Below are positions 3,867 to 16,513 of a DNA stretch of 64,000 bases, one piece after another; within the stretch, counting starts at the first letter, position 1; every line of letters begins with the position of its first letter. A model generated the notes under the pieces. That model had not been told where the DNA came from, did not search any database, and saw only the letters and a list, made by a program, of their open reading frames with translations. The stretch lies in the NCBI RefSeq assembly GCF_033845285.1, contig NZ_JAWXCX010000001.1, positions 1,193,495 to 1,257,494 on the forward strand. The letters run 5' to 3'. This DNA comes from Marinococcus sp. PL1-022. Lineage in GTDB: Bacteria > Bacillota > Bacilli > Bacillales > Marinococcaceae. A program made the translations under genes and the position numbers.

Positions 3867-4649
3867 GTGATTATTACTACCGCCAAAAAGCCGGACCCGG
3901 ATGTGCGCGCGGAAGCCGAGTTAAAAGCGCGGGCGTGGAATGCGCCATGTGTGCCGCGGGAGAAGCGCTCAATCCAGCGCTGGCAGCGGGAAACGCAGGA
4001 GGACATCTACATTGTGGCCGCAGGCGGCGACACGTACCATCCGGCGACGGAAGCCGCCGAGCCGCTCGCGTTTCACCCGTCGATGGCGTGGCTGCGCGGC
4101 CTGCAGGTTCACCGCGGGGGAAGTGATCCGCTGCTGGAGGCGGCCGATGTACGCGAAGGCGACTCGGTGCTCGACGCGACGCTCGGCTTCGGTGCCGACA
4201 GCATCATGCTTGCCCACGGCGTGGGAGAGACCGGTACGGTGCTTGGTATCGAAAAACAGCCGGTCGTGGCGTCGCTCGTCCGCAAAGGGCTCCGGCTTCC
4301 GGGGGACTATCCCGGCTGGTTTACGGACGCGATGCAGCGGATCACGGTCGTCCAGGGCGACAGCTTTCGCCTTCTGCGGCTGCTTCCCGACAGCTGCATG
4401 GATGTCGTGTACCTGGATCCGATGTTTGCCGAAGCGGTGGACACAAGCCCGGCGATTGACCGGCTGCGCCCGGTGGCGGCGACCGACCCGCTGACAGACG
4501 ATTGGATCGAAGAAGCGATGCGGGTAGCCAGGCGCCGGATTGTCGTCAAAGACTATGCGGAGAGCCCGCATTTTAAGCAGTATCAGTTAACCCCGGCCGG
4601 GCGGCGGAACGCCGTGGTCCGGTACGGATGGAAGGAGGCATACACGTGA
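3867..4649 (+). CDS. Class I SAM-dependent methyltransferase, RsmJ/DUF548-like
   Basis: Predicted S-adenosylmethionine-dependent methyltransferase. The SAM-binding motif is VLDATLGFGADS, an acidic residue closes strand 2 (GIEKQP), and the catalytic-region motif is VVYLDPMF, followed by RRIVVKDYAES. The order and wording of these motifs resemble RsmJ, the 16S rRNA guanine-1516 N2-methyltransferase of Proteobacteria. The actual substrate in Bacillota is not known, so an RNA target is inference. GTG start at 3867 has AAGGGGAG upstream. Its stop codon overlaps the GTG start of miaA (GTGA), so the two are translationally coupled, which supports a shared role in RNA modification. Confidence 0.85.
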   Translation: MIITTAKKPDPDVRAEAELKARAWNAPCVPREKRSIQRWQRETQEDIYIVAAGGDTYHPATEAAEPLAFHPSMAWLRGLQVHRGGSDPLLEAADVREGDSVLDATLGFGADSIMLAHGVGETGTVLGIEKQPVVASLVRKGLRLPGDYPGWFTDAMQRITVVQGDSFRLLRLLPDSCMDVVYLDPMFAEAVDTSPAIDRLRPVAATDPLTDDWIEEAMRVARRRIVVKDYAESPHFKQYQLTPAGRRNAVVRYGWKEAYT

Positions 4650-5584
4650 AGCAACCGGTACTCGCTGTTGTCGGCCCGACGGCGGTCGGCAAAACGCGGC
4701 TCGGCATTGAGCTGGCCCGTAAATACAACGGCGAAATCATCAGCGGCGACTCGATGCAGGTGTACGAAGGGCTCACAATCGGGACGGCCAAGCCGACGCT
4801 CGAAGAACGCCGCGAGGCCCCGCACCATCTCGTGGACATGCTGTCGCCGGACACACCGTATTCGGCGGCCGACTTTAAAGCAAAGGCCGAGCCGATCATC
4901 GAGCGGCTGCACGGGGAAGGCAAGCTTCCGATTATCGTCGGCGGCACCGGCATGTACATCCGGGCACTCCTGCACGACTATTCGTTTTATGATGCGAAGA
5001 AGCAGGAGGGGGTGCGCGAGAAGTGGGAGCTGTACGCGCACCAGTACGGAAGCGACGCGCTTCACGCGAACCTTGCGCGCCGCGACCCGGAGCGCGCGGC
5101 CGCGATGCACCCGAATAACGTGCGCAAGGTCGTGCGGGCACTCGAAATTCTTGAAACAGCGGAAGAAGGTCCAACTTTATCCAAAAAAATGCAAAAAAAG
5201 CATTCGCCCTACGCCTCATTCATGATAGGATTAACAATGAACCGTCCGTATTTGTATGAGCGGATCGAGCGCCGGGTCGACCGCATGATGGCCGACGGCC
5301 TCGAACACGAAGCGCGCTGGCTGTACGAACGCTTCGGCGAGGAAGTACAGGCCGCCCAGGCGATCGGCTACAAGGAATGGTTCCCGTATTTCCGCGGGGA
5401 CGAAAGCGCCGACTGGGTCGCCGAGCGGATGAAGCGCAATTCCAGGAGATACGCCAAGCGGCAGCTCACCTGGTTCCGCAACAAAGAGGACGCACACTGG
5501 TATGATATTACCGATCGCTCCCGGCCGTTTGCCGACGAAGCATTTGCTTCAATTCTGCGGCAGTTCGAGCGTGAGCATCGCTAA
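4646..5584 (+). CDS. miaA: tRNA dimethylallyltransferase MiaA
   Basis: MiaA transfers a dimethylallyl group to N6 of adenosine-37 in tRNAs that read UNN codons. The P-loop is GPTAVGKT near the N-terminus, followed by the substrate-binding stretch [18 protein letters not shown], the GGTGMY loop and a C-terminal QAIGYKE motif. I chose GTG at 4646 rather than the in-frame ATG at 4628: GAAGGAGG lies at 4631-4638, and the resulting start [17 protein letters not shown] matches the family. The start overlaps the stop of the upstream methyltransferase gene by 2 bases. 312 aa is the usual length. Confidence 0.97.
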
Positions 5585-5628
5585 TACATAAATCACTTAC
5601 TAAGCCCGCAGTGGAAGGAGATTCAATC

Positions 5629-5868
5629 ATGAAACAATCAGTCAATATCCAGGATCAGTTTTTGAATGTCGTACGCAAGGAAAAAATTCAGGTGACCGTC
5701 TTTCTGACGAACGGCTTTCAGCTGCGCGGCCTGATCAAAGCCTTTGACAACTTCACCGTCGTCCTCGACAGCGACGGCAAGCAGCAGCTCGTCTACAAGC
5801 ACGCCATCAGCACCTTCGTCCCGCAGCGGACCGTCTCCCTGCAGACCGAAAGCGAGAGCGAAGAATAA
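5629..5868 (+). CDS. hfq: RNA chaperone Hfq
   Basis: Hfq is the hexameric Sm-like RNA-binding protein that follows miaA in many bacteria. The 79-aa product contains the Sm1 segment ([21 protein letters not shown]) and the Sm2 motif YKHAIST. The start is ATG at 5629 behind GGAAGGAG; an in-frame GTG at 5611 sits inside that ribosome binding site and is unlikely. The C-terminal tail is short and acidic, as in other Bacillaceae. A terminator follows directly, so hfq is the last gene of the mutS-hfq block. Confidence 0.98.
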
Positions 5869-5871
5869 AAA

Positions 5872-5936
5872 GAAGCTTCCCGAAAAGGAAGCTCACGAGA
5901 CCGCCCGTTCCTGTGGAAGCAGGGGCGGGGGTTTTT
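5872..5936 (+). terminator. Double hairpin terminator after hfq
   Basis: Two consecutive hairpins follow the hfq stop. The first pairs AGCTTCC with GGAAGCT. The second pairs CCGCCC...CCTG (from 5901) with CAGG...GGCGGG and runs into a T tract at 5931-5936. Together they form a strong intrinsic terminator. Confidence 0.85.
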
Positions 5937-5971
5937 ATATTAATTAACAAAAAAAGAAGTGAACGCCGATT

Positions 5972-7019
5972 GTAAAATTAAGCTAGACAACGAAAAAGAT
6001 CACTCGTGATACACTCAAGATGAATTTCCGACCAAAGAAATCATAGGAGTGATCACGAATGACCTACACCCATCTTAGCACGAATGAAGTTGTCCTCATA
6101 GAAGCATATAACCAGAATGAGTTCCCGGTTTTCCGGATTGCCAGGCAGCTCGGGCGTGCCCGTCAAACGATCCACAACGTCGTGAGCTACTTACGGGAAG
6201 GGCATCGGGCCCTTGATTATGTTCAGCGGTATCAAGCCAATAAACAGCGGTGTGGTCGAAGACCGACGGTCTTAACGCCCGCCGACCAGGTCTATGTCAC
6301 CGAGAAAATCAAGGAAGGATGGACCCCTGATGTCATCGCCGGACGCCGGGAGCGTCCGCTTCCCTGTTCCGGACGCCCCCTGTACCGGATGTTTGAGCGA
6401 TGGATGCTGGATCGAAGCACCCTGCCAATGAAAGGGAAGCGGAAACCAAACGGGCATCAGGAACGCCGGGGAAAGCAGGCGTTTCGGCGGACTCTTGCGG
6501 ACAGGGACCGGGAGTACCCGGCCTTTCGGCAGGAATTCGGGCACCTGGAAGGAGACACCATTGTTGGTCGTCACCATCAAAGTGCTGTGATCACTCTGGT
6601 TGAGCGTTTATCGAAAGTGATCGTTACCCTTCAACCAGCCGGCCGTAAGGCCAGAGATATTGAAACCACGCTGCACCGGTGGTGCAGCCGTTTCCCGAAA
6701 CACTTATTCAAATCCATCACCTTTGACTGCGGCAAGGAGTTTTCCAACTGGCAGTCGATCAGCAACAGGCACGACCTTGCCATTTATTTTGCGGATCCAG
6801 GAACGCCTTCCCAACGCGGATTAAATGAACATTCAAATGGCCTCCTCCGAAAGGATGGCCTGCCTAAGCACATGGATTTTCAGGATGTGGACCAGTCGTA
6901 TGTTTCCGCTGTGGCCTCCGGAAGAAATCACATCCCAAGAAAGTCGTTAGACTATTGCACCCCGTTGGAAGTATTCATGAGGTATATGGAGAATGATATG
7001 GTGTCTAACTTAATTTGAC
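5972..7019 (+). mobile_element. IS30-family insertion sequence
   Basis: Imperfect terminal inverted repeats bound one transposase gene. The left end at about 5969-5991 (TGTAAAATTAAGCTAGACAA) matches the reverse complement of 7000-7022 at about 19 of 23 positions. GATT is found directly outside both ends (5968-5971 and 7020-7023), a possible target duplication; the exact ends may shift by 1-3 bases because GAT can also be read as part of the repeat. The transposase stop codon lies inside the right repeat. The element sits downstream of the hfq terminator and appears complete. Confidence 0.85.
6059..7018 (+). CDS. IS30-family transposase
   Basis: The 319-aa protein has an N-terminal helix-turn-helix (RIARQLGRARQTIHNVVSYL) and a C-terminal DDE integrase-type core: first Asp in HLEGDTIVGR, second in TFDCGKEF, and Glu in LNEHSNGLLRK. 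This is the IS30-family layout. Length and frame are intact, so it may be active. ATG at 6059 follows AGGAGTGATCACGA. The base composition lies between that of the GC-rich genes before it and the AT-rich DNA after it. Confidence 0.95.
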   Translation: MTYTHLSTNEVVLIEAYNQNEFPVFRIARQLGRARQTIHNVVSYLREGHRALDYVQRYQANKQRCGRRPTVLTPADQVYVTEKIKEGWTPDVIAGRRERPLPCSGRPLYRMFERWMLDRSTLPMKGKRKPNGHQERRGKQAFRRTLADRDREYPAFRQEFGHLEGDTIVGRHHQSAVITLVERLSKVIVTLQPAGRKARDIETTLHRWCSRFPKHLFKSITFDCGKEFSNWQSISNRHDLAIYFADPGTPSQRGLNEHSNGLLRKDGLPKHMDFQDVDQSYVSAVASGRNHIPRKSLDYCTPLEVFMRYMENDMVSNLI

Positions 7020-7023
7020 GATT

Positions 7024-7372
7024 TAAAATGATTAAAAGAGTTATTAATATAATACTTTGAAATTGTTAATCGATTTAAAGCAACTCGCTCTTAATTAAAG
7101 AGCAGGGTTGCTTTTTTATTTGATCTATTGAATGTTATACATATGCATGAACTGATTCAATAAATATATTTAATTTTGAATTACTCAATTATATAAGAAA
7201 TTAAAATTTTGCAGTGAAAATATAAGTACCATCTTGCAAATTCCTATTCTACAAATTTGAAACATGGAAAGCCCTTACATAGTTGCGGTGGTTGTATTAT
7301 AGTAACGGTATTCACTAGTGATGAGCAAATACATTTTGCAATTTGAAACAAAGAGGCGGGAGGTGAATCATC
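7024..7372. other. AT-rich non-coding stretch after the IS
   Basis: There is no convincing gene here. The stretch is AT-rich, contains one terminator hairpin (7080-7117), and ends with a good ribosome binding site (GGGAGG, 7358-7363) for the broken regulator that follows. A short frame from 7318 runs through the regulator's start in another phase and has no recognisable content. Confidence 0.6.
7080..7117 (+). terminator. Intrinsic terminator
   Basis: GCAAC...GCTCTT pairs with AAGAGC...GTTGC around an AATTA loop, followed by TTTTTT. It closely resembles the hairpin at 7771-7811 and lies downstream of the IS30 element. The gene it originally served is no longer visible. Confidence 0.8.
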
Positions 7373-7720
7373 ATCGTCCTGGATCAGCGCCGGACGGCGA
7401 TCTTAAATTATGTACTGCAGGCGGACACGGTCGTGGAAGTGGATCGGTTAACGAAGCAGTTCGGCATCTCACAGCGCACCATCTATTACGACCTTCAGCA
7501 GATTGACGACTGGCTCGAGGAAAATAAGCTGACGCGCACCCAGCGGATCTACGGCAAGGGCATCTACCTGGACTCGGAGACGAGGCGGAAGCTGCAGGAT
7601 GTTACCCACATCGACAACGACTGGGATTACCGGTTCGACCAGTGGGAGCGTATCTACCTGATTGTGCTGCATCTCTTGGTGGCGAAAGCAAACGTTCAGA
7701 CGAACACGCTGCTTGACTGA
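7373..7720 (+). pseudogene. Truncated BglG/PRD-family transcriptional regulator
   Basis: The frame encodes the first ~115 residues of a PTS-linked PRD regulator: an HTH_11 domain (VDRLTKQFGISQRTIYYDLQQIDDWLEENKL) followed by the beginning of the Mga-type region, then a stop at 7718-7720. Intact relatives such as the neighbour at 8762 are about 700 aa, so the HTH-Mga-PRD-PRD-EIIB-EIIA chain is lost. The expected start, eight to nine bases after GGGAGG, reads ATC (ATC GTC CTG GAT CAG) instead of ATG; the first normal in-frame start is GTG at 7433, inside the HTH. Both ends therefore look damaged. It is probably a remnant of a PTS regulator left by rearrangement near the IS. Confidence 0.75.
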
Positions 7721-7770
7721 GTTAAAATAGCTGTGAAATGAATAAAGTCTAAATAAATACCAACTCAAAT

Positions 7771-7811
7771 AGCAGCCCGCTCTTAATTACAGAGTGGGCT
7801 GCTATTTTTTT
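7771..7811 (+). terminator. Intrinsic terminator, probably bidirectional
   Basis: AGCAGCCC...GCTCT pairs with AGAGT...GGGCTGCT and is followed by TTTTTT. It shares the central GCTCTTAATTA and AGAG sequence with the hairpin at 7080-7117. It can end transcription from the pseudogene and, read on the other strand, help end the converging aldolase gene. Confidence 0.8.
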
Positions 7812-7878
7812 ATTTTAGTAACCTATTATATATTTACTGCTTTTCTTCAATTAATATATTAAGTATTAACGTAGATAC

Positions 7879-8514
7879 TCAAAGTTGCACTTCTCCGGCC
7901 AACCGCTGAAATTCGCCCGCAAGCCGGGTGACTTCCTCATAATCACCGATTTTGGCCGGCCCGGTGATCGCCCCGCCGGCACCGAGCATCACGGCACCAG
8001 CCTGCAGCCATTCCTGCACGTTATTCAGGTCCACACCGCCGGTTGGCATCAACTGCAGGTGCGGCAGCGGGCCGCGAAGCGTTTTGATAAAGGAAGGGGC
8101 GTACATCTCCCCGGGGAACAGTTTGACCACCTGGGCGCCGTAGGCGAGCGCTTCGGTCGCTTCCCGGACGGTCATGATACCCGGAAGATACGGCACCGCA
8201 TAGCGGTTGCACAGCTTCGCGACCTCCGGGTCAAAGGACGGGCTCACAATAAAGGATGCGCCCCGGACAATCGCCAGCCGGGCCGTTTCGCTGTCGAGCA
8301 CGGTACCGGCCCCGATAACGGCATCCGGATACTTTTGTACCAGCGTGCGCAGCACATCGTCGGCATCCGGCACGGTAAAAGTGACTTCGAGTGTTTTAGA
8401 GCCGCCTTTCACGCAGGCATCTGCCGTCTTTATAGCCTGGTCCGGGCTGTCGCCCCGGATCACAACCGCCACCTTGTTTTCCATCATTTGATTCAGAATA
8501 TGAAATACTCTCAT
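7879..8514 (-). CDS. eda: KDPG/KHG aldolase family protein
   Basis: Class I aldolase that splits 2-keto-3-deoxy-6-phosphogluconate (or a related 2-keto-3-deoxy acid phosphate) into pyruvate and an aldehyde phosphate. The 211-aa product has the Schiff-base lysine in VVKLFPGE (K131), the catalytic glutamate in LEVTFT (E43), GAGTV, SPSFD and the phosphate loop PTGGVD. The start is ATG at 8514 with AAAGGAG upstream; an in-frame GTG one codon earlier is less well spaced. It is divergent from the PTS regulator at 8762. That places an acid-sugar-phosphate aldolase next to a lactone-type PTS locus and suggests shared catabolism (inference). Confidence 0.92.
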   Translation of the reverse strand: MRVFHILNQMMENKVAVVIRGDSPDQAIKTADACVKGGSKTLEVTFTVPDADDVLRTLVQKYPDAVIGAGTVLDSETARLAIVRGASFIVSPSFDPEVAKLCNRYAVPYLPGIMTVREATEALAYGAQVVKLFPGEMYAPSFIKTLRGPLPHLQLMPTGGVDLNNVQEWLQAGAVMLGAGGAITGPAKIGDYEEVTRLAGEFQRLAGEVQL

Positions 8515-8761
8515 CACGCATCTCCTTTAATATTATTAGCAGTACCAATGTTTTCGCTGTAATTCCTGCCATCCGTAGAAAGAAACTTTATCAGCAGTAA
8601 TAAAATAATACGTAAAACCTGAACCTCTTTGCAAGTTTATCTGCGAAACAATTCTTTTCACGAAACTATTGAAAGCATTTGGTCTTAAGCTTTATGAAGA
8701 AAAAAGCTAAGATTATTATTAACAACCAACTGAAATGTCGCGACGAAAGGAAGGTTGTCTT

Positions 8762-10876
8762 ATGGCGTTGGATCAAAGGAGTTTGGAAATTTTAAGCAAT
8801 TTGCTGGAAACGGAGGAGCCATTATCCGTTTCTTACCTGGCAGGGACTTTTCAGGTCTCGGAACGAAGCATTTATCTGGACCTGGATAAAATCAGTCACT
8901 GGATGAAGGAAAACCATTTTTCCGGCCTGGGCCATCAAAGATCCAGGGGATACTTTATCGAGCCGTTCATGAAAAGGGCTATTGCAGAGAGCGGGATACT
9001 GTATCAGCAGGAATACATTTATTCACGCGAGGAAAGAAAATCGGTTATTTACCTTATTTTAATCAGCAGCGTAAAGGATAAATGGATGGTAGCTGATTTT
9101 CAGGAGCTGTTCCGTGTGAGCCGCAACACGGTTTTAGATGATGTCCGCCTGCTTCGGGAAGAGCTGAAAGCGTGGTCGTTGTCGATATCCTTTGATTTGA
9201 CGGAGGGCTATCGCATCAAGGGATTGGAAAAGGATAAACGCCGTAAGATCAGTCATTTGCTGCATTATCATTTTACAGAGGAAGGACGTTTTTCCTTTTC
9301 TTTTTTCTCCAGGCTCGGGGAATCGATGAATTTTTTGCAATATTCTGCTGTAAAGCATATTGAAACAGTTATTCATCAGATTGAAGAGGCTGCAGGGATA
9401 GAATACACTGATGACATTATTGAACAGCTGAGTGTACGTTTTGCTTTCTTCCTGCGTCGTTCTAAGCATGGAAAGCATATACAGCTTGACCCGGCAGAAC
9501 GGGAAGTTATTGTGAATACGCATCTCTACGAAATATCAAAACAGCATTTACATGTGCTTCCTTTATCAGAAGGAATATCGGCTGCTGAAGAGATCATCTA
9601 CTTTACGGCGCATCTTCTGAGTGCACGTACGAACCGTATTTCTGAATCGATGTGGGGAGAGCTTGGAAGATCAGAGCTGTTGGCAGCGATTTATTCTTTC
9701 ATTCGAGAATTCGAAAAATTCGCACTCGTGGAAATCGAGGATAAAAGAGGCCTGGCCAACAATCTTTCGATTCACCTGCAGCCGGCCATCTTCCGGATGC
9801 GCTACGGAATACAAATGAAGGATAAATCCCTGGAAAAAGTTAGAGAAAATTTAAATGATGTATATATTTTAACGAAACAATCCAAGCACGTTTTAGAAAC
9901 CTTCCTCGGCCAGGTGATCCCGGACGAGGAGACAGCTTATCTGGCCATGCATTTTGGAAGCTGGCTGCAGCAGGAAGGTCTCGCACCGGTAAAGAAATGG
10001 AAAATGCTGATTGTCTGCCATAGCGGTATCGGCACTTCCAGGCTGCTCGAGAGTCAGCTGCGTGATCTGCTTTCGGATATCGAAATTATAGATACGGTAT
10101 CACTGCGTCAGTACCATGATATGGATATCAGCGACGTCGACTACATTGTTTCCACAATATCGATTCCGGAGCGGGAAATTCCAGTCATTCACGTACCTAT
10201 AGTTTTTAGCGAAACGGATAAAGAAATACTGCTCAATCAAATTAACGGACGCTGGAAGCAGAAAAGCTTCAGCCGGGAGCAGCAGATGAAGCAGCTGATG
10301 AAAATCATTGGCAGGTATGCAAAGATTCAGGATGCCAAAGGGTTGTCGGGTGAATTACAGGGATGGATGCAGCCTGAATTACTGCGGGCAGCAAACACAA
10401 ACAAACAGACCTCTTCATTAGAGCATGTTTTGCCGGCGGAACATATACGTATGCTTCCTTCAGCAGGTTCATGGCAGGAGGCTGTCGAAGAAGCGTCCGT
10501 TCCGCTTATAGAAAATAATGTTATCAGCAGAGAGTACGTCACAGCCATGCGCCAGAATTTACTGGAGCAGGGGCCCTATGTAGTCATCGCACCCGAAATT
10601 GCCATGCCGCATGCAAGTTCAGATGCAGGTGTCCATCAGCTGGGCTTCAGCCTCTTATTGCTTGAAAATCCGGTAGACATGATTGGCAAATCAGTAAAAC
10701 TTCTTATTGTGGTAGCTTCTCCGGATGACCATAGCCATTTAAGAGCACTGGCAGAGCTGAATCAATTACTCTATGATGCCGGGAAACGCGAAGCGTTACT
10801 CCATGTCAGGGACCAGGAATCGTTAGTCAGTATAATTCATCCTGTAGAGCAGGACTCAGCCTCTTCCATATATTAA
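8762..10876 (+). CDS. PRD-containing PTS transcriptional activator (BglG/MtlR type)
   Basis: Regulator whose activity is set by PTS phosphorylation. Domain order in 704 aa: HTH_11 (LAGTFQVSERSIYLDLDKI), Mga-type second HTH (FQELFRVSRNTVLDDVRLL), PRD1 (around HIETVIHQIEEA), PRD2 (around HLQPAIFRMRYGI), an EIIB-like domain with Cys in LIVCHSGIGTSRLL, and a C-terminal EIIA-like domain with the phospho-histidine in IAMPHASS. The start is ATG at 8762 with AAGGAAGG upstream; an in-frame ATG 27 bases earlier has no ribosome binding site. It leads directly into the EIIA, EIIB and EIIC genes and very likely activates them and perhaps the divergent aldolase. The DNA-binding, non-antiterminator class is inferred from the domain order. 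Confidence 0.93.
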   Translation: MALDQRSLEILSNLLETEEPLSVSYLAGTFQVSERSIYLDLDKISHWMKENHFSGLGHQRSRGYFIEPFMKRAIAESGILYQQEYIYSREERKSVIYLILISSVKDKWMVADFQELFRVSRNTVLDDVRLLREELKAWSLSISFDLTEGYRIKGLEKDKRRKISHLLHYHFTEEGRFSFSFFSRLGESMNFLQYSAVKHIETVIHQIEEAAGIEYTDDIIEQLSVRFAFFLRRSKHGKHIQLDPAEREVIVNTHLYEISKQHLHVLPLSEGISAAEEIIYFTAHLLSARTNRISESMWGELGRSELLAAIYSFIREFEKFALVEIEDKRGLANNLSIHLQPAIFRMRYGIQMKDKSLEKVRENLNDVYILTKQSKHVLETFLGQVIPDEETAYLAMHFGSWLQQEGLAPVKKWKMLIVCHSGIGTSRLLESQLRDLLSDIEIIDTVSLRQYHDMDISDVDYIVSTISIPEREIPVIHVPIVFSETDKEILLNQINGRWKQKSFSREQQMKQLMKIIGRYAKIQDAKGLSGELQGWMQPELLRAANTNKQTSSLEHVLPAEHIRMLPSAGSWQEAVEEASVPLIENNVISREYVTAMRQNLLEQGPYVVIAPEIAMPHASSDAGVHQLGFSLLLLENPVDMIGKSVKLLIVVASPDDHSHLRALAELNQLLYDAGKREALLHVRDQESLVSIIHPVEQDSASSIY

Positions 10877-10892
10877 TAAATTAGGTGATAGA

Positions 10893-11342
10893 ATGAAATT
10901 TTTACCAGAAGAAATGATAAATGTACAGCATCCTGTGTCTTCACCAGAAGAGGCCATTAGGGCAGCTGGGGATTTGTTGGAAAAGGAAAAAACAATAAGT
11001 TCTTCATATATTCAGGCAATGGTGGAGGCCTATATTTCCCAGGGGGCATATTTTGTATTGGCGCCTGGCGTTGCTGTCCCTCATGCAAGGCCGCAGGACG
11101 GGGCTTTAGAGTCCGCTATCTCCTTTGTACAGCTGGAAGAGCCTGTTGTATTTGGTCATTCGACAAATGATCCTGTCACATTGGTATTTGGGCTAAGTGC
11201 AGCATCGAATGACGAACATCTTCACATTTTGCAGAAACTAACGATGCTGTTAAACGATCCATCAACGATAGAACATATGAAGAAAGCGCAGAACGTAGAA
11301 GATATTAAAAAAATTATTCAAAGGAGCGGGATGAAGAAATGA
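10893..11342 (+). CDS. PTS sugar transporter subunit IIA (ascorbate/mannitol-fructose fold)
   Basis: 149-aa free-standing EIIA that passes phosphate from HPr to EIIB. The phosphorylated histidine is H64 in GVAVPHARP, typical of the PTS_EIIA_2 family. It follows the regulator by 16 bases, and its end overlaps the start of the EIIB gene (ATGA), so production of the two is coupled. With the UlaA-like EIIC downstream, the ascorbate-type complex is the best assignment; the substrate itself is not shown by the sequence. Confidence 0.92.
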   Translation: MKFLPEEMINVQHPVSSPEEAIRAAGDLLEKEKTISSSYIQAMVEAYISQGAYFVLAPGVAVPHARPQDGALESAISFVQLEEPVVFGHSTNDPVTLVFGLSAASNDEHLHILQKLTMLLNDPSTIEHMKKAQNVEDIKKIIQRSGMKK

Positions 11343-11608
11343 AAATTTTAACGGTATGTGGTTTGGGACAAGGAACGAGCCTGATTTTGAAAATGAATGT
11401 TGAAACCGCCCTGGAACAGAAAAATATCGAAGCGGATGTTGAGCATATGGACGTTTCGTCCGCATCCGGCGTGCAGGCAGATTATATTATTACCAACCAG
11501 GAATTAGCCCCCAACCTAGAAGGACATAAAGCAAAGCTGATAATTGTGCAGAACTATTTTGATCCTAACGAAATCAGCCAGGCGATTGATGAGCAGATGC
11601 AAGACTAA
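11339..11608 (+). CDS. PTS sugar transporter subunit IIB, ascorbate type
   Basis: 89-aa EIIB with the phospho-cysteine at C7 in the loop VCGLGQGTSL, as in SgaB/UlaB proteins. It receives phosphate from EIIA and passes it to the sugar bound by EIIC. It overlaps the EIIA gene by 4 bases and is followed after about 30 bases by EIIC. It is complete for its family. Confidence 0.92.
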   Translation: MKILTVCGLGQGTSLILKMNVETALEQKNIEADVEHMDVSSASGVQADYIITNQELAPNLEGHKAKLIIVQNYFDPNEISQAIDEQMQD

Positions 11609-11637
11609 TTAAGAGTGCACACATAGGGGGATTAAGC

Positions 11638-12939
11638 ATGGAATTTGTGTTTTGGCTAGCAGATAATTTCTTTGGTACACCAGCTATACTTATTGGGTTA
11701 ATTGTATTAATCGGACTGCTTCTGCAAAAAAAGAGAGCCAATCAGGTTATCACCGGGACGTTCAAAGCGATCATCGGCTTTCTGATCATCACAGCCGGTG
11801 CGGGTATTATTACAGGCTCACTCGAAGTTTTCGAGCCGTTATGGGCAGAAGTGTTTGGTTTGGATTACGCTTCCATCTCCAACTATATGGGGCAGGAAAC
11901 GTTTAATGCAGAGTTTGGCAGCGTAGTTACACTTTCGATGACGTTCGGCTTTTTGATCAACGTATTGCTCGCACGATTTACACCGTTAAAATATATTTAT
12001 TTAACCGGACATATGATGTTTTGGACCTCGACGATATTTGCCGGAATCATTGTTCATGCATCTGGCGGAAATGCGAATATGCTCGGCATGGTGGCATTTT
12101 TATCTATCGTTCTTGGGATTTATTGGACAGTGCAGCCGGCTATTGTTCAGCCTTTCATGAGAAAGATTATGGGTAATAATGAAGTAGCTCTTGGGCATAC
12201 AAGCGCTTCTGTTGGGCTATTATCTGCCCTTGCTGGAAAGCTGGTCGGTAAGAATTCACAAAATACGGAAGACGTTAAATTGCCGAAAGGGCTTGAGTTT
12301 TTAAGGGATTCCAACGTTATTACAGCGCTTACCATGGCCCTTCTGTTTGTATCTGGTGCTATTATCATTACTCTCCGGAACAGCCCGGGTTCGGAAGAGC
12401 TGGAGGCGATGGCTGGAAGTCAGAGCTTTATCGTTTACGCCCTTATTCAGTCATTTACGTTCGCAGCCGGTATTGCCGTCGTTCTGACGGGTGTGAGAAT
12501 GTTTATCGGGGAAATCGTACCCGCGTTCCGTGGTATAGCGACTAAAATCGTACCTGGAGCAAAGCCGGCCCTGGACAACCCGATTGTCTTTCCTTCCGCA
12601 CCAAACGCAGTGATCGTAGGATTTATTGGAGCCTTTTTGGGAGCCCTCGTCTGGCTGGCGGTTCTCGGTAACACCGTGAGTTATATATTTGTTCCAACAA
12701 TGATCGTTTTATTTTTCCACGGCGCGACAGCAGGGGTATTTGGCAACATTACCGGAGGCATCAGAGGAGCATTTATGGGCGGACTTATAACGGCTACGGT
12801 TGTGGCCTGGGGCCAGTTCGTTATGGTGCGTATGCTGCTGCCGACTACCGTTCCGGATACAGCAATGTGGGCTGCAGATTCTGATATGTTCATCCTTGGA
12901 CCGATCGTGTACTGGCTTGCCCATTTATTCTTTGGATAA
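11638..12939 (+). CDS. PTS sugar transporter subunit IIC, ascorbate (UlaA/SgaT) type
   Basis: Integral membrane permease of 433 aa with about ten hydrophobic segments; it begins with an N-terminal membrane segment followed by LLQKKRANQVITGTFKAIIG, characteristic of the UlaA/SgaT family. It carries the substrate across the membrane while EIIB phosphorylates it. ATG at 11638 has AGGGGG upstream. The downstream genes differ from the classical ascorbate (ula) set: there is no UlaG, UlaD, UlaE or UlaF. The substrate is therefore probably a related sugar acid or lactone rather than ascorbate (inference). Confidence 0.9.
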   Translation: MEFVFWLADNFFGTPAILIGLIVLIGLLLQKKRANQVITGTFKAIIGFLIITAGAGIITGSLEVFEPLWAEVFGLDYASISNYMGQETFNAEFGSVVTLSMTFGFLINVLLARFTPLKYIYLTGHMMFWTSTIFAGIIVHASGGNANMLGMVAFLSIVLGIYWTVQPAIVQPFMRKIMGNNEVALGHTSASVGLLSALAGKLVGKNSQNTEDVKLPKGLEFLRDSNVITALTMALLFVSGAIIITLRNSPGSEELEAMAGSQSFIVYALIQSFTFAAGIAVVLTGVRMFIGEIVPAFRGIATKIVPGAKPALDNPIVFPSAPNAVIVGFIGAFLGALVWLAVLGNTVSYIFVPTMIVLFFHGATAGVFGNITGGIRGAFMGGLITATVVAWGQFVMVRMLLPTTVPDTAMWAADSDMFILGPIVYWLAHLFFG

Positions 12940-12980
12940 TAATGCTGGTATAGTCTACTAAACAGGAAGGTGAAAGAATA

Positions 12981-13973
12981 ATGCCGTTCGTTCGAACGCT
13001 CCACGGAGATATATCTCCAGAGGAAATGAAAATTACTTATGCACACGAGCATATTGTCTGCCGGCCGCCCTATTGGGTGGAGAAAAAGGAATCAGATTTG
13101 TTGTTGGATGATAAAGAAAAATCACTGTTGGATGTACAGGATTTCGTAGACCTTGGCGGCAAAACCATTGTTGATGCTACTGCTGTGGACTATGGCAGAG
13201 ACGTTGCGGCTGTTGCAGACATTGCTGAACGTCTTTCCATGCATATCATAGGCACCGCCGGGTTTAATAAAAGCTTTCTATGGGATGCGGCTATTCCCGT
13301 CCATCTTCAGAAGAAGCTGGGCGAATTTAGAAGCTACGGTGATTGGATCGAGCATACCTCTGTCCAGGGGCTCACAAACCATGTAACAGCAGAGGTGGAA
13401 CAGGGGCTGGAAGATACCAGCCACCGGGCAGGGCAGGTGAAATTCGGTACCGGCTACAACCGTATTACGCCGCTGGAGGAGAAAACGATCCGTGCAGTAG
13501 CGAGGGCTCATCATGAAACGGGGGCGCCTGTACATTCCCATACTGAAGTAGGCACGATGGCTTTAGAGCAAATTGAGCTGCTGAAAAAAGAAGACGTTCC
13601 TTTGGACAGAGTGAGCTTTGGCCATATGGATCGGAACCCTGATCCTTATTACCATGAGCAGGTAGCGAAGACAGGCGCTTTCCTGAGCTTTGATGGCATT
13701 GGGAAAATCAAATATGCGCCAGAGAGCACGCGGCTGCATTGTATTTTTAAGCTGGTGGAAAAAGGATATGCTTCTCAAATTCTGATTAGCGGGGATACAG
13801 CGAGGAAGTCCTATTACAGACACTACGATTACGGCCCGGGCCTGGCCTATATTTTAGAAAGCTGGGTGCCCCGTTTTATCGATGAGGCAGACCAGCTCGG
13901 TCTGGATGGCAAAAATTTAATTCATCAGTTTTTCGTCGAAAATCCAGCCAGATGCATGACTTTTCACCGGTAA
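12981..13973 (+). CDS. Phosphotriesterase-family hydrolase, probable phosphorylated sugar lactonase
   Basis: Binuclear metal amidohydrolase of the phosphotriesterase fold, 330 aa. Metal ligands are visible as H22 and H24 (AHEH), bridging lysine K154 (VKFGTGYN), H187 (HSHTE), H215 (FGHMDRN) and D272 (ISGDTARK). Members of this subgroup in Listeria (Lmo2620) and Bacillus halodurans (Bh0225) were reported to hydrolyse 5-phosphorylated sugar lactones. Placed right after an ascorbate-type PTS, it most likely opens the lactone phosphate produced on import. AGGAAGGTG precedes the ATG. The exact lactone is unknown. Confidence 0.88.
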   Translation: MPFVRTLHGDISPEEMKITYAHEHIVCRPPYWVEKKESDLLLDDKEKSLLDVQDFVDLGGKTIVDATAVDYGRDVAAVADIAERLSMHIIGTAGFNKSFLWDAAIPVHLQKKLGEFRSYGDWIEHTSVQGLTNHVTAEVEQGLEDTSHRAGQVKFGTGYNRITPLEEKTIRAVARAHHETGAPVHSHTEVGTMALEQIELLKKEDVPLDRVSFGHMDRNPDPYYHEQVAKTGAFLSFDGIGKIKYAPESTRLHCIFKLVEKGYASQILISGDTARKSYYRHYDYGPGLAYILESWVPRFIDEADQLGLDGKNLIHQFFVENPARCMTFHR

Positions 13974-13990
13974 ATAGGAGGAAATCAACT

Positions 13991-14743
13991 ATGGAAATTG
14001 CATTTGCACGGTCTACAGAAATAAAGGAAAAGATTGAAGAACGCCCGGCAGCTGTATTACCGGTAGGGGCAGTAGAAGCCCACGGGGCCCATCTGCCGCT
14101 TGGCACAGATAATATATTGGCGGAACGGCTGGCCAAACGGCTCGCTGAGGAAACACAAAGCTTTCAGCTGCCGCTTTTACCGTACGGCCAGGTGTGGAGC
14201 CTGAAGCAGTTCCCCGGATCCATTAGTATCACAAATGATGTGCTGATAAATACGATTGTCTCGATTGGTGAAAGTCTTTACCAGCAAGGGTTCTGTATTT
14301 TTGCCATCGTAAACGGGCACCTGGGAAATCAGACAGCTTTAAAAGAAGCGGCGAGAGTGTTATATGAACGTTTTCCGGATCTTCGGGTTTTTTACTTCTT
14401 TTATCCAGGACTCAATCAGAAGCGAAAGGAAGTAGAAGAATCGGCGGTGCATCACTCCTATTTTCACGCCTGTGAAATTGAAACATCCATGATGCGGTAC
14501 GTGGCGCCTGGGCACGTTGATATGAGCCGGGCCATTGACGATCCTCCCCATATTCCGATCGAAGCAGATTTTACACCGACCCCCTGGGAGGTATTCACCG
14601 AAACGGCAGTTCTGGGTGAAGCGACAAAAGCAACGGCTGAAAAAGGAGAAATCATTATTGAACACGCTTTGCAGCAAATGAAGATGATGATGGACCGTGC
14701 CTATGAGGAATGCAAAAAAACAAGAAAGGAGAATAAAAAATGA
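13991..14743 (+). CDS. Creatininase-family amidohydrolase
   Basis: Metal-dependent hydrolase of the creatinine amidohydrolase family, 250 aa. The family motif GAVEAHGAHLPLGTD supplies metal ligands E29, H31 and D40, and NGHLGNQ supplies H110. Known members hydrolyse cyclic amides or formamides, so its place in a sugar-lactone operon is unexplained. The start is ATG at 13991 behind TAGGAGGAAA; an in-frame ATG at 13952 lies inside the preceding gene and has no ribosome binding site. It overlaps the next gene by 4 bases (ATGA). No signal peptide, so the product is cytoplasmic. Confidence 0.88.
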   Translation: MEIAFARSTEIKEKIEERPAAVLPVGAVEAHGAHLPLGTDNILAERLAKRLAEETQSFQLPLLPYGQVWSLKQFPGSISITNDVLINTIVSIGESLYQQGFCIFAIVNGHLGNQTALKEAARVLYERFPDLRVFYFFYPGLNQKRKEVEESAVHHSYFHACEIETSMMRYVAPGHVDMSRAIDDPPHIPIEADFTPTPWEVFTETAVLGEATKATAEKGEIIIEHALQQMKMMMDRAYEECKKTRKENKK

Positions 14744-15468
14744 TTGAAACGTATTTTAATCGTATCCATCAACAGCTCGAGCAGGTACAAAAGTCGCAAA
14801 CCGAGCCGATGACTCAGGCAGCTGCCCATATGGCTAAATCACTCCAGCAAGGGGGGATTATTCAATTATTTGGATGCGGACACTCCCATTTACTGACGCT
14901 CGATGTGTATTACCGTGCAGGAGGAATGGTGCCTGTTCAGCCTATTCTCCATGAACCATTAATGCTTCATGAAGGTGCTCTGCGTTCATCCGAACTGGAA
15001 AGAAAAAATCACTATGCAGAAACGTTTTTGAAGGAACAAACGATCAAACCGGAAGATACAGTGATTGTCATTTCTACTTCTGGAAGAAATCCTGTGCCAG
15101 TGGACGTTGCTTTGGAAGCAAAAAAAGCTGAAGCCACAGTAGTCGTAATTACATCAATCGCCTATTCAAGCAGTCAACCATCCCGGCATGAACAGGGATA
15201 TAGGCTGGCTGATGTGGCAGATGTTGTGATCGACAACGCCGCTCCCCCGGGAGACGCTCTGCTGGAACTGGAGGAGGTGGAGGTGCCGTTTGGTCCCAGC
15301 TCCACTGCGGTAGGAGCTACTATTCTCCAAGCTGTGATGGCTCAGACGGTCCAGGAGCTTACCAGCTTAGGCATTGATCCACCTGTATTTCTTAGTGGGA
15401 ATATTGACGGGGCAGATGAGCGAAACAAACGGTTGATTGAATCCTATAAGGATCGTATAAAATTATAA
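14740..15468 (+). CDS. SIS-domain protein, UPF0309 family
   Basis: 242-aa protein with a sugar isomerase (SIS) fold: the phosphosugar loop LFGCGHSHL, VIVISTSGRNPVPVDVA, and the terminal motif GPSSTAVGATILQAV. SIS domains isomerise or sense phosphosugars; the UPF0309 group has no settled reaction. It is the last gene of the PTS operon, overlaps the creatininase gene, and has AAAGGAG upstream. It could be an isomerase for the acid-sugar phosphate or a sensor. A terminator follows at 15500. Confidence 0.88.
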   Translation: MIETYFNRIHQQLEQVQKSQTEPMTQAAAHMAKSLQQGGIIQLFGCGHSHLLTLDVYYRAGGMVPVQPILHEPLMLHEGALRSSELERKNHYAETFLKEQTIKPEDTVIVISTSGRNPVPVDVALEAKKAEATVVVITSIAYSSSQPSRHEQGYRLADVADVVIDNAAPPGDALLELEEVEVPFGPSSTAVGATILQAVMAQTVQELTSLGIDPPVFLSGNIDGADERNKRLIESYKDRIKL

Positions 15469-15499
15469 GCTCGTATGAAAAACAAGATTTTTATACGGG

Positions 15500-15530
15500 A
15501 GCCCTGATGCGAAACAGCATCAGGGCTTTT
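15500..15530 (+). terminator. Intrinsic terminator of the PTS-lactonase operon
   Basis: A perfect 11-bp stem AGCCCTGATGC / GCATCAGGGCT with a GAAACA loop, followed by a short T run. It ends the 8.8-15.5 kb operon just before the converging gene that ends at 15542. Confidence 0.9.
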
Positions 15531-15541
15531 CAATGTAGAGA

Positions 15542-16513
15542 TTAATAAAATACTGACTTTAATGCCTTCAAAATATCACGACCGAGTTGCTGGGTTGTTT
15601 TCTTTTTCCCAGAAGATCTGTACAGATCGACGTTCAGGTTAAACTCTTGATTTATCTGGCGCAGCACAGGTTTCGCGATTTCCTTTTCCTGCAGATCGGA
15701 ATTGTATACGATAATTGTTCCACTGTCGTACTGTTGGATAAGGTATTTGGTGCTTCCTGAAGTGACCGTTACCTCCTGTCGCAGACTTCCAGGTTCAGCG
15801 GGATTTCTGGAGCGTTTGGCTGCAGCCTTCTGGCTGTCCAGGATATGACGGATAAACGCTTTTAACGTATGGCGGACGTATTCTGAAATAGGTTCGATTT
15901 CGCCCCGCGCCTCTTTTTCCAGCATTAACCGGATGAGGGAAACAATCGAGAAACCGTCGTTTCCCGTCCAGGTGCACCAGGCTTTGCGGTGGGGAGCGAT
16001 GTCTTCTTCCCGTAATTCCGCGTAAGCTTCCTGGAGCGGACCTCGAGAAGCTTCCGGAGTTAAATAGATCATTGTCACCGCTGTTTCGTTTTGATCTTCA
16101 AGATCTTCGCGAACCGCAAAGTATTCGCGCCGGAACTGATCCTTCGTCGCTGCCTGCGGCCGGATTTTATTTTCGATTAATACCCGGTGTATTTCTGTTG
16201 ATTCGGACTGATAACCTGCAGCGGAATTAGCTAAATAAAATCGCAGATCCAAATCGATGAATAATTTTCGTTCGTCCAGCTGATAGGGACTTTCAAAAAT
16301 AACTTCTGTTTCAGATAGAGAATGCTGCTGCAGTATATATGTAAACCGTCCGTTTAAAGCCTCTGTCTCGTTTAAAGCTTCGAGGAAGCTCTGAAGAAAA
16401 ACATTACCTAAACCGTGGGGCTCTTTTGTTGACAATAAGTATCCAAGCATAGCACTCATGTTCTCTTCATTTAATTTTCCGTTGCCCATGCTCAGGGCTT
16501 GAAAGATATTCAT
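15542..16513 (-). CDS. PD-(D/E)XK nuclease superfamily protein of unknown role
   Basis: 323-aa protein. Residues 85-130 show a PD-(D/E)XK-like core: acidic residues in FIDLDLRF (D87, D89), then VLIENKIRPQ with E114 and K116, followed by a Gln/Arg-rich helix (DQFRREY). The N-terminal part (NEENMSAMLGYLLS) resembles the helical lead-in of PD-(D/E)XK proteins found in defence or phage contexts. The last ~75 residues form a separate basic domain after a Ser/Arg-rich linker. The gene stands alone on the minus strand with AAAAGAGGTG before its ATG. Function is not known; nuclease activity is inferred from the motif only. Confidence 0.7.
   Translation of the reverse strand: MNIFQALSMGNGKLNEENMSAMLGYLLSTKEPHGLGNVFLQSFLEALNETEALNGRFTYILQQHSLSETEVIFESPYQLDERKLFIDLDLRFYLANSAAGYQSESTEIHRVLIENKIRPQAATKDQFRREYFAVREDLEDQNETAVTMIYLTPEASRGPLQEAYAELREEDIAPHRKAWCTWTGNDGFSIVSLIRLMLEKEARGEIEPISEYVRHTLKAFIRHILDSQKAAAKRSRNPAEPGSLRQEVTVTSGSTKYLIQQYDSGTIIVYNSDLQEKEIAKPVLRQINQEFNLNVDLYRSSGKKKTTQQLGRDILKALKSVFY

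Follow-up and report, generated by a model that had tools for sequence, protein, structure and literature searches.

Gene content and recurrence of the operon

In a 64,000-nucleotide stretch of the Marinococcus sp. PL1-022 genome (contig NZ_JAWXCX010000001.1, positions 1,193,495 to 1,257,494; hereafter the window), we analyzed a predicted catabolic operon that joins an ascorbate-type phosphotransferase system (PTS) to a phosphotriesterase-family lactonase, a creatininase-family hydrolase and a UPF0309 SIS protein, and we considered what it may break down. Annotation and domain searches recovered every gene named in an earlier, sequence-only reading of this DNA, in the order and range given there and with the aldolase divergent:

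7879-8517, minus strand: 2-keto-3-deoxy-6-phosphogluconate (KDPG)/2-keto-4-hydroxyglutarate (KHG) aldolase of the Eda type, divergent (PF01081, 160 bits; NF005119, 280.7 bits against a cut-off of 238)
8735-10876, plus strand: PRD regulator (Pfam: HTH_11, Mga-type HTH, two PRD, an EIIB-like domain under cut-off, EIIA)
10893-11342, plus strand: PTS IIA (PF00359, 110 bits)
11339-11608, plus strand: PTS IIB (PF02302, 53 bits; NCBIfam ascorbate IIBC and IIB models matched, both under cut-off)
11638-12939, plus strand: PTS IIC, ascorbate (GAT) family (PF03611, 387 bits; NF006919, 502.5 bits against a cut-off of 380)
12981-13973, plus strand: predicted phospho-lactonase of the phosphotriesterase family (gap-free relative of 3PNZ, E 3.7e-155; K242, K244, R275 and Y278 present)
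13952-14743, plus strand: creatininase-family hydrolase, proposed N-deacylase (PF02633, 217.5 bits; predicted creatininase fold with a predicted local distance difference test score, pLDDT, of 93)
14740-15468, plus strand: UPF0309 SIS protein (PRK02947), proposed 2-acetamido sugar-acid phosphate C2-C3 dehydratase (SIS_2; NF002805, 328.5 bits against a cut-off of 135)

Judged from its sequence, this predicted catabolic operon is real and conserved, and its description as a PTS operon with a lactone-opening step is supported. IIA and IIB, and likewise the creatininase and SIS genes, overlap by 4 bases. By contrast, the 22-base overlap annotated between the lactonase and creatininase genes is probably an artefact, because the consensus of the relatives seems to begin at about the second ATG, which would place the true creatininase start near 13994, and because the first ten residues are the worst-modelled block of the protein (pLDDT 55). 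A promoter and terminator scan of positions 7700-15700 gave 13 and 7 sites, compared with 12.4 and 8.0 in shuffled sequences, and Rfam and tRNA scans of the window gave no matches. PF01081 genes number four in the whole 3.2-Mb genome.

The lactonase aligned without gaps over 329 residues to 3PNZ, which we take to be the Listeria lactonase Lmo2620. It has the same four residues that presumably hold the distal phosphate in that enzyme, and across 57 aligned rows K242 was kept in 53, K244 in 56, R275 in 54 and Y278 in all 57. It scored under the cut-off of the phospho-furanose lactonase model NF045706 (178 against 630 bits). In ascorbate utilization the PTS is accompanied by the UlaG lactonase, the UlaD decarboxylase and UlaE/F; none of these is among the operon genes.

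To follow the gene set across genomes (numbered G, their loci L), the lactonase was searched at E 1e-50 in three genome samples, with the host genome counted each time. In the order sample 21 of 397 genomes gave a match, in the phylum sample 9 of 398, and in the class sample 26 of 398; two places, in G609 (phylum sample) and G967 (class sample), had a stop inside the match. We defined a core set of 36 distinct loci whose lactonases are at least 63% identical (35 sampled genomes plus the host), and annotated them by phmmer with reference sequences. L001, nearly identical to the window, and lactonases scoring less than 470 bits were kept outside this set, and G175, present in two samples, was counted once. 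A creatininase gene lay close by in 35 of the 36 core loci, a SIS gene in 35 and a IIC gene in 35. The sole locus lacking both creatininase and SIS was L060, where the lactonase is found with DgaF, and the sole one lacking IIC was L063, on a short contig. Since IIC, creatininase and SIS are each kept nearby in 35 of 36 loci, the gene set recurs far beyond chance, and the co-occurrence of the four families, a check suggested in the sequence-only reading, holds for the close clade. Outside the core set, creatininase and SIS genes were both present at L002/L064 (one contig), L065, L066 and L067.

Calling the cluster unusual was, however, too strong, for it is found repeatedly in Bacillota, and Listeria annotations contain a similar one. 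Listeria lmo1968-lmo1974 sets a creatinine amidohydrolase, a KDPG aldolase, a phosphotriesterase and an ascorbate-type PTS side by side, as here; the passages that describe this cluster assign it no substrate and, unlike the window, it has no SIS gene listed there, so that it resembles the SIS-less sister clade discussed below (PMC2996996, PMC3692452).

An aldolase-like gene accompanied 19 of the 36 core operons: a DgaF-type KDGP aldolase (PF07071) in 12, Eda in three and CutC in four, never two kinds together. In 11 of the 12 loci with DgaF, the gene sits between creatininase and SIS; the one DgaF that was checked scored 210 bits against PF07071, above cut-off, and 182 bits against NF047796, under its cut-off of 300. 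The CutC-family genes (Pfam name) stand in operons without DgaF or Eda, at L047 (7032-7715), L050 (6828-7511), L062 (7216-7914) and L092, where the gene lies between IIC and the lactonase. CutC is a TIM-barrel family of unclear function, and in these four operons it might be a stand-in aldolase. Beside the operon of one relative, L048, a convergent gene (4157-6712) encodes a PIG-L type de-N-acetylase with NPCBM-associated domains.

The SIS protein, the creatininase relative and amino-sugar genes

The SIS and creatininase steps had been left without a role by the sequence-only reading, and for the SIS protein there is now a lead. Besides passing the curated UPF0309/PRK02947 cut-off, it has two solved relatives, 3CVJ and SCO4393, the latter described as NagS, an N-acetylglucosamine-6-phosphate (GlcNAc-6P) dehydratase of Streptomyces for which H53, R64, E94, D179, S91 and N228 are reported as essential or important and three further serines as phosphate-binding (PMC12680351). 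In our alignment the window protein keeps all nine tested residues (H53, S54, R64, S91, E94, S119, S121, D179 and N228), and across 40 operon SIS sequences the sole departures were one substitution at S54 and one at S91. The setting differs, since NagS acts on GlcNAc-6P in a toxicity checkpoint and is linked to dmdR1 (PMC12680351), whereas the SIS gene of the window, in a host outside the Streptomycetaceae, has a PTS operon for neighbours.

Among 388 scanned genomes of the class, 65 carry UPF0309, with 80 places in all; 19 of these belong to the present operon. From the 61 others, the 40 best-scoring places, one partial match left aside, were read; the remaining 21 include L100 (G961) and L099 (G1040). 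A nagA-like gene lay within 6.5 kb in 27 of the 40, comprising 14 in the closer set of 20 and 13 in the more distant set of 20. Two of the 27, L182 and L189, rest on weak nagA-like matches (144 and 125 bits), and L188, with only a NagB-like match that fell under the 1e-60 check, was not counted as nag-linked. The gene orders outside the operon included NagA-NagB-GntR-SIS, NagA-SIS-NagB and SIS-NagA, and at L166 PTS IICB, NagA, SIS and NagB follow one another. In three more places the SIS gene accompanies an ascorbate-type IIB-IIC pair, standing after it at L179 and L185 and around it at L171. The host genome itself carries a second UPF0309 SIS gene (L149, 9325-10065; C1, at about 2.72 Mb), 60% identical to the first and directly after a PTS EIIC-EIIB gene; nagB and nagA lie on the other strand about 4 kb, or three to four genes, away, and this place is among the 14. 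L164, which comes from a genome lacking the lactonase operon, has a gene for a family 3 glycoside hydrolase (7902-9539) between the UPF0309 SIS gene and NagB-NagA.

The operon showed the same linkage from its own side. nagA or nagB was found within 7.5 kb of seven of the 36 core operons (L054, L055, L076, L077, L082, L086 and L089), which gives a binomial probability of about 6e-8 at an assumed chance of 1%, with kinship left uncorrected. These seven span five families (f2, f49, f199, f210 and f208), and the NagB of every one passes the curated cut-off of TIGR00502. At L077 and L082, NagA-NagB-GntR lead straight into IIA-IIB-IIC-lactonase-creatininase-SIS, and L067, a more distant locus, also has nagA or nagB at that range, while at L002 the operon follows murQ. 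Genes for this SIS protein thus turn up repeatedly beside those of amino-sugar catabolism, either with NagA or with the creatininase relative. On the strength of this gene linkage, the assignment of the operon to amino-sugar metabolism is well supported.

The creatininase relative falls within its superfamily (PF02633, 217.5 bits against a gathering threshold of 31.3), and its predicted model resembles creatininase with a TM-score of about 0.8. It nevertheless scored under the cut-offs of the NCBIfam models for true creatininase (130.4 against 235 bits), MftE (105.2 against 172) and IolN (74.6 against 245). In a hand-read alignment to a solved creatininase, E122, W154 and W174, positions taken from the titles of mutant entries in the Protein Data Bank (PDB), correspond to G125, P152 and H168 of the window protein. 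In its 51 relatives E42, H44, D53, H123 and E177 are invariant, and E175 is kept in 50. A fold search with the model returned 26 matches at E ≤ 0.001, all of the creatininase family and none naming another function. Because E122, W154 and W174 are not kept, the family name is a poor guide to activity on a cyclic amide. The sequence-only reading had proposed a sugar lactam or amide as substrate; an N-acetyl amide is probably involved, to judge by the gene neighbours, but a lactam or aldonamide is unsupported, and a lactam is unlikely. Mainly because the SIS protein pairs with NagA in one setting and with the creatininase relative in the other, we read the latter as a putative N-acetyl amide hydrolase. 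A second, distant creatininase-family gene in the host genome (L101, 9932-10741; C1, at about 2.13 Mb) is 34% identical to it.

A candidate N-acetylglucosaminate route and its alternatives

Gene sets of this kind are usually annotated as uptake of ascorbate-type (vitamin C) sugars. We propose, with a probability of about 0.42, that this one serves to break down a 2-amino-2-deoxy-hexonic acid carrying an N-acyl group. The likeliest candidate is 2-acetamido-2-deoxy-gluconate (N-acetylglucosaminate), an oxidized form of the N-acetylglucosamine of chitin and cell walls, or the lactone of this acid. The enzyme families, the conserved catalytic residues, the gene linkage and the amino-sugar and KDGP-aldolase neighbours are read from the sequence; from these we infer the substrate, each reaction and their order. 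The ascorbate-family PTS would import N-acetylglucosaminate or its lactone and phosphorylate it at position 6, and the phosphotriesterase relative would open the phospho-lactone ring. The SIS protein would then eliminate water across C2-C3, as NagS does on GlcNAc-6P, and the creatininase relative would cleave the N-acyl (acetyl) amide, the resulting enamine giving KDPG and ammonia. Finally, the KDPG aldolase would split KDPG into pyruvate and glyceraldehyde-3-phosphate. Lactone opening, dehydration and deacylation may run in another order, deacylation first giving glucosaminate-6-phosphate; on chemical grounds dehydration perhaps precedes ring opening, because a lactone has a more acidic C2-H than an aldonate.

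The overall conversion has a precedent. The oxidative chitin (Ong) pathway of Pseudoalteromonas takes in N-acetylglucosaminate and yields 2-keto-3-deoxygluconate-6-phosphate (KDG-6-P), acetate and ammonia, as proposed here, but by other enzymes: its early intermediates are unphosphorylated, its transporter is of the SSS type, OngB is D-aminoacylase-like and OngC is D-amino acid deaminase-like, and the text consulted describes no phospho-lactonase, SIS protein or creatininase relative (PMC9537276).

The D-glucosaminate PTS pathway of Salmonella (DgaABCD, DgaE and DgaF) likewise imports a 2-amino sugar acid through a PTS and ends in a KDGP aldolase, pyruvate and glyceraldehyde-3-phosphate, and the DgaF-type aldolase of 12 of the 36 core operons adds to the likeness. 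The Salmonella PTS is of the mannose type rather than the ascorbate type, and the lactonase, creatininase relative and SIS protein are additional here. The window operon has Eda instead of DgaF, a search of the host genome for PF07071, run without a positive control, giving no match; the pyridoxal phosphate (PLP)-dependent lyase DgaE is not among the window operon genes, no genome-wide search for it having been made.

More broadly, and with somewhat greater doubt, the operon may belong to a phosphorylated pathway of Bacillota, so far undescribed, that consumes N-acetylglucosaminate or its lactone. A SIS dehydratase of the UPF0309 family and an N-deacylase of the creatininase family would there jointly stand in for the PLP ammonia-lyase. 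UPF0309 proteins would then act in general as lyases between C2 and C3 of 2-acetamido-sugar phosphates, each with an amidohydrolase as partner, either NagA or the creatininase relative. We found no description of this pathway in the open-licence library searched. If it is true, a widespread orphan PTS cluster gains a substrate class, UPF0309 SIS proteins gain a role outside Streptomyces, the creatininase superfamily gains a new activity in amino-sugar N-deacylation, and there is a second way to eat oxidized chitin or cell-wall sugars, with enzymes unlike those of marine Gammaproteobacteria. The lactonase, the creatininase relative and the SIS protein are small and likely soluble, which makes the claim open to one coupled assay.

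Several observations weigh against the N-acetylglucosaminate route. One is a sister clade of six loci (L070, L071, L072, L095, L096 and L097; lactonases 43-45% identical) that has the PTS, the lactonase and the creatininase gene without an adjacent SIS gene, so that lactonase and creatininase can work without the dehydratase; the aldolase is Eda in five of the six, and L072 has no adjacent aldolase. Searched whole, five of the six genomes gave no SIS match at 1e-10, with no control inside that search, although the same query matched 65 of 388 class genomes in the separate scan; in the sixth, G054, the SIS gene is present in its other operon (L053). The case that would refute the sequence-only reading, operons of this type without creatininase and SIS, is confined to L060 in the close clade; it partly applies in the sister clade, which has the creatininase but no SIS. 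L093 and L094, two copies in one genome, have the lactonase, creatininase and DgaF with neither SIS nor PTS nearby, and at L068, L069 and L098 both creatininase and SIS are missing from the vicinity. L073, L074, L099 and L100 conversely keep SIS without creatininase. These last four form another cassette, with a distant lactonase, a short-chain dehydrogenase/reductase (SDR) and SIS but no PTS, and three of them also hold a gene for a ROK kinase, two a gene for a Gfo/Idh-type oxidoreductase; their SIS copies differ at the positions of NagS S91 and N228.

Further points on the same side concern the partners and the substrate. No DgaF, Eda or CutC gene is adjacent in 17 of the 36 core operons, and 13 of the 40 UPF0309 surroundings read have no nagA-like gene. 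The 3PNZ lactonase is said to act on 5-phospho pentonolactones (D-lyxono- and L-ribono-1,4-lactone-5-phosphates). A chitin lytic polysaccharide monooxygenase (LPMO) made by the host as the source of the substrate was considered and gained no support: PF03067 occurs in 24 of 397 order genomes and in none of the 21 lactonase carriers, where about one was expected by chance, and the host genome was negative. Because there are lactonase clusters without SIS or without creatininase, and because LPMO does not co-occur, the proposed substrate, and indeed any common denominator of all lactonase clusters, is a working hypothesis.

Comparisons of the SIS proteins supply points both for the route and against it. 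At the thresholds used, no alignment positions separated operon SIS from nag SIS, and in a quick tree, from which L064 was left out as lying on the same contig as L002, neither the operon nor the nag group came out as a single clade in the drawn topology (9 and 7 changes of label). That tree is weakly supported: 23 of its 61 inner branches are open, and several branches are long; its well-supported branches force only 1 and 4 label changes, and the labels are more clustered than in shuffles. A single origin of the operon-type SIS is therefore compatible with it. Distant NagS homologues from Clostridium amylolyticum, Paenibacillus selenitireducens and Acidothermus are reported as inactive on GlcNAc-6P, which counts against the route, and 6-phosphogluconate, an aldonate-6-phosphate, as a high-affinity competitive inhibitor of NagS, which counts for it (PMC12680351). 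Both results would fit a usual UPF0309 substrate that is the aldonate or lactone version of GlcNAc-6P.

A nitrogen-free route, in which the PTS imports a pentono- or hexono-lactone or an ascorbate-like compound, the 5-phospho-lactone is opened, and the creatininase relative and SIS protein carry out C-C hydrolysis or isomerization before a KDPG-type aldol cleavage, would account for the ascorbate-type IIC, for the reported substrates of 3PNZ, the closest solved relative of the lactonase, and for the phosphate-binding residues. It can also draw on IolN, a creatininase relative that NCBIfam names 3-dehydro-scyllo-inosose hydrolase, but the IolN score is far under cut-off. As no ascorbate-6-phosphate decarboxylase or epimerase is among the operon genes, and as this route leaves the repeated nagA/nagB linkage of both operon and SIS family and the NagS-type residues unexplained, we consider it unlikely. 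The closest real form of the earlier lactam idea is salvage of muramic compounds from cell wall or spore cortex, with the lactonase opening an N-acetylmuramic acid (MurNAc) lactone, the creatininase relative opening the muramic delta-lactam and the SIS protein cleaving the lactyl ether like MurQ. Creatininase itself opens a cyclic amide, the SIS protein scores weakly against the MurQ model, and at L002/L064, in a Thermoanaerobacteraceae metagenome-assembled genome (MAG), the operon comes directly after what were read as genes for a mannose-type PTS, a beta-lactamase-family protein and MurQ. Yet none of the 36 core operons has murQ within 7.5 kb, MurQ is already encoded where it is adjacent, and KDPG/KDGP aldolases need an oxidized C1 that the muramic lactam does not have; such salvage therefore seems quite unlikely. 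We regard as very unlikely a damage-control role in which the enzymes clear dehydrated or oxidized by-products of GlcNAc-6P (6P-chromogen and lactone) with no dedicated food substrate. It is consistent with SIS genes in nag clusters that lack the other operon genes and with the reported deacetylation of 6P-chromogen I by NagA in Streptomyces (PMC12680351), but the dedicated PTS of 35 of the 36 operons argues for an external substrate.

Setting of the operon in Marinococcus

Two further features lie to the left of the operon:

6059-7018, plus strand: IS30 transposase (NF033563, 243.7 bits against a cut-off of 80)
7369-7720, plus strand: remnant of another PTS regulator gene, intact at the same site in a congener (L109)

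The hfq-side flank is common to all five searched genomes of the genus. Beyond it, the sequence could be read in two genomes, the contig ending soon after in the other two: G380 (L109) has a PRD/EIIA regulator that is intact (687 aa) and, next to it, an EIIC-GAT gene, and G361 (L107) a long stretch with DNA methyltransferase-like and other genes. Window positions 7222-7719 match L109 at 94% DNA identity, and the remnant at 7369-7720 is the G380 regulator in truncated form. The genus thus has a variable site after hfq. In the order sample, the lactonase was absent from the three other sampled genomes of the genus and from the 12 other listed genomes of the family. Given this scarcity, the differing content after hfq, and the IS30 transposase and truncated regulator to its left, the operon is probably a late arrival at the variable site. 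In the uncultured Marinococcus of L001, a creatininase copy 95% identical to that of the window lies inside the same gene set, and a Gabija defence pair follows right after the operon (10706-14463; PADLOC: GajA 933 bits, GajB 638 bits), where the window has other genes.

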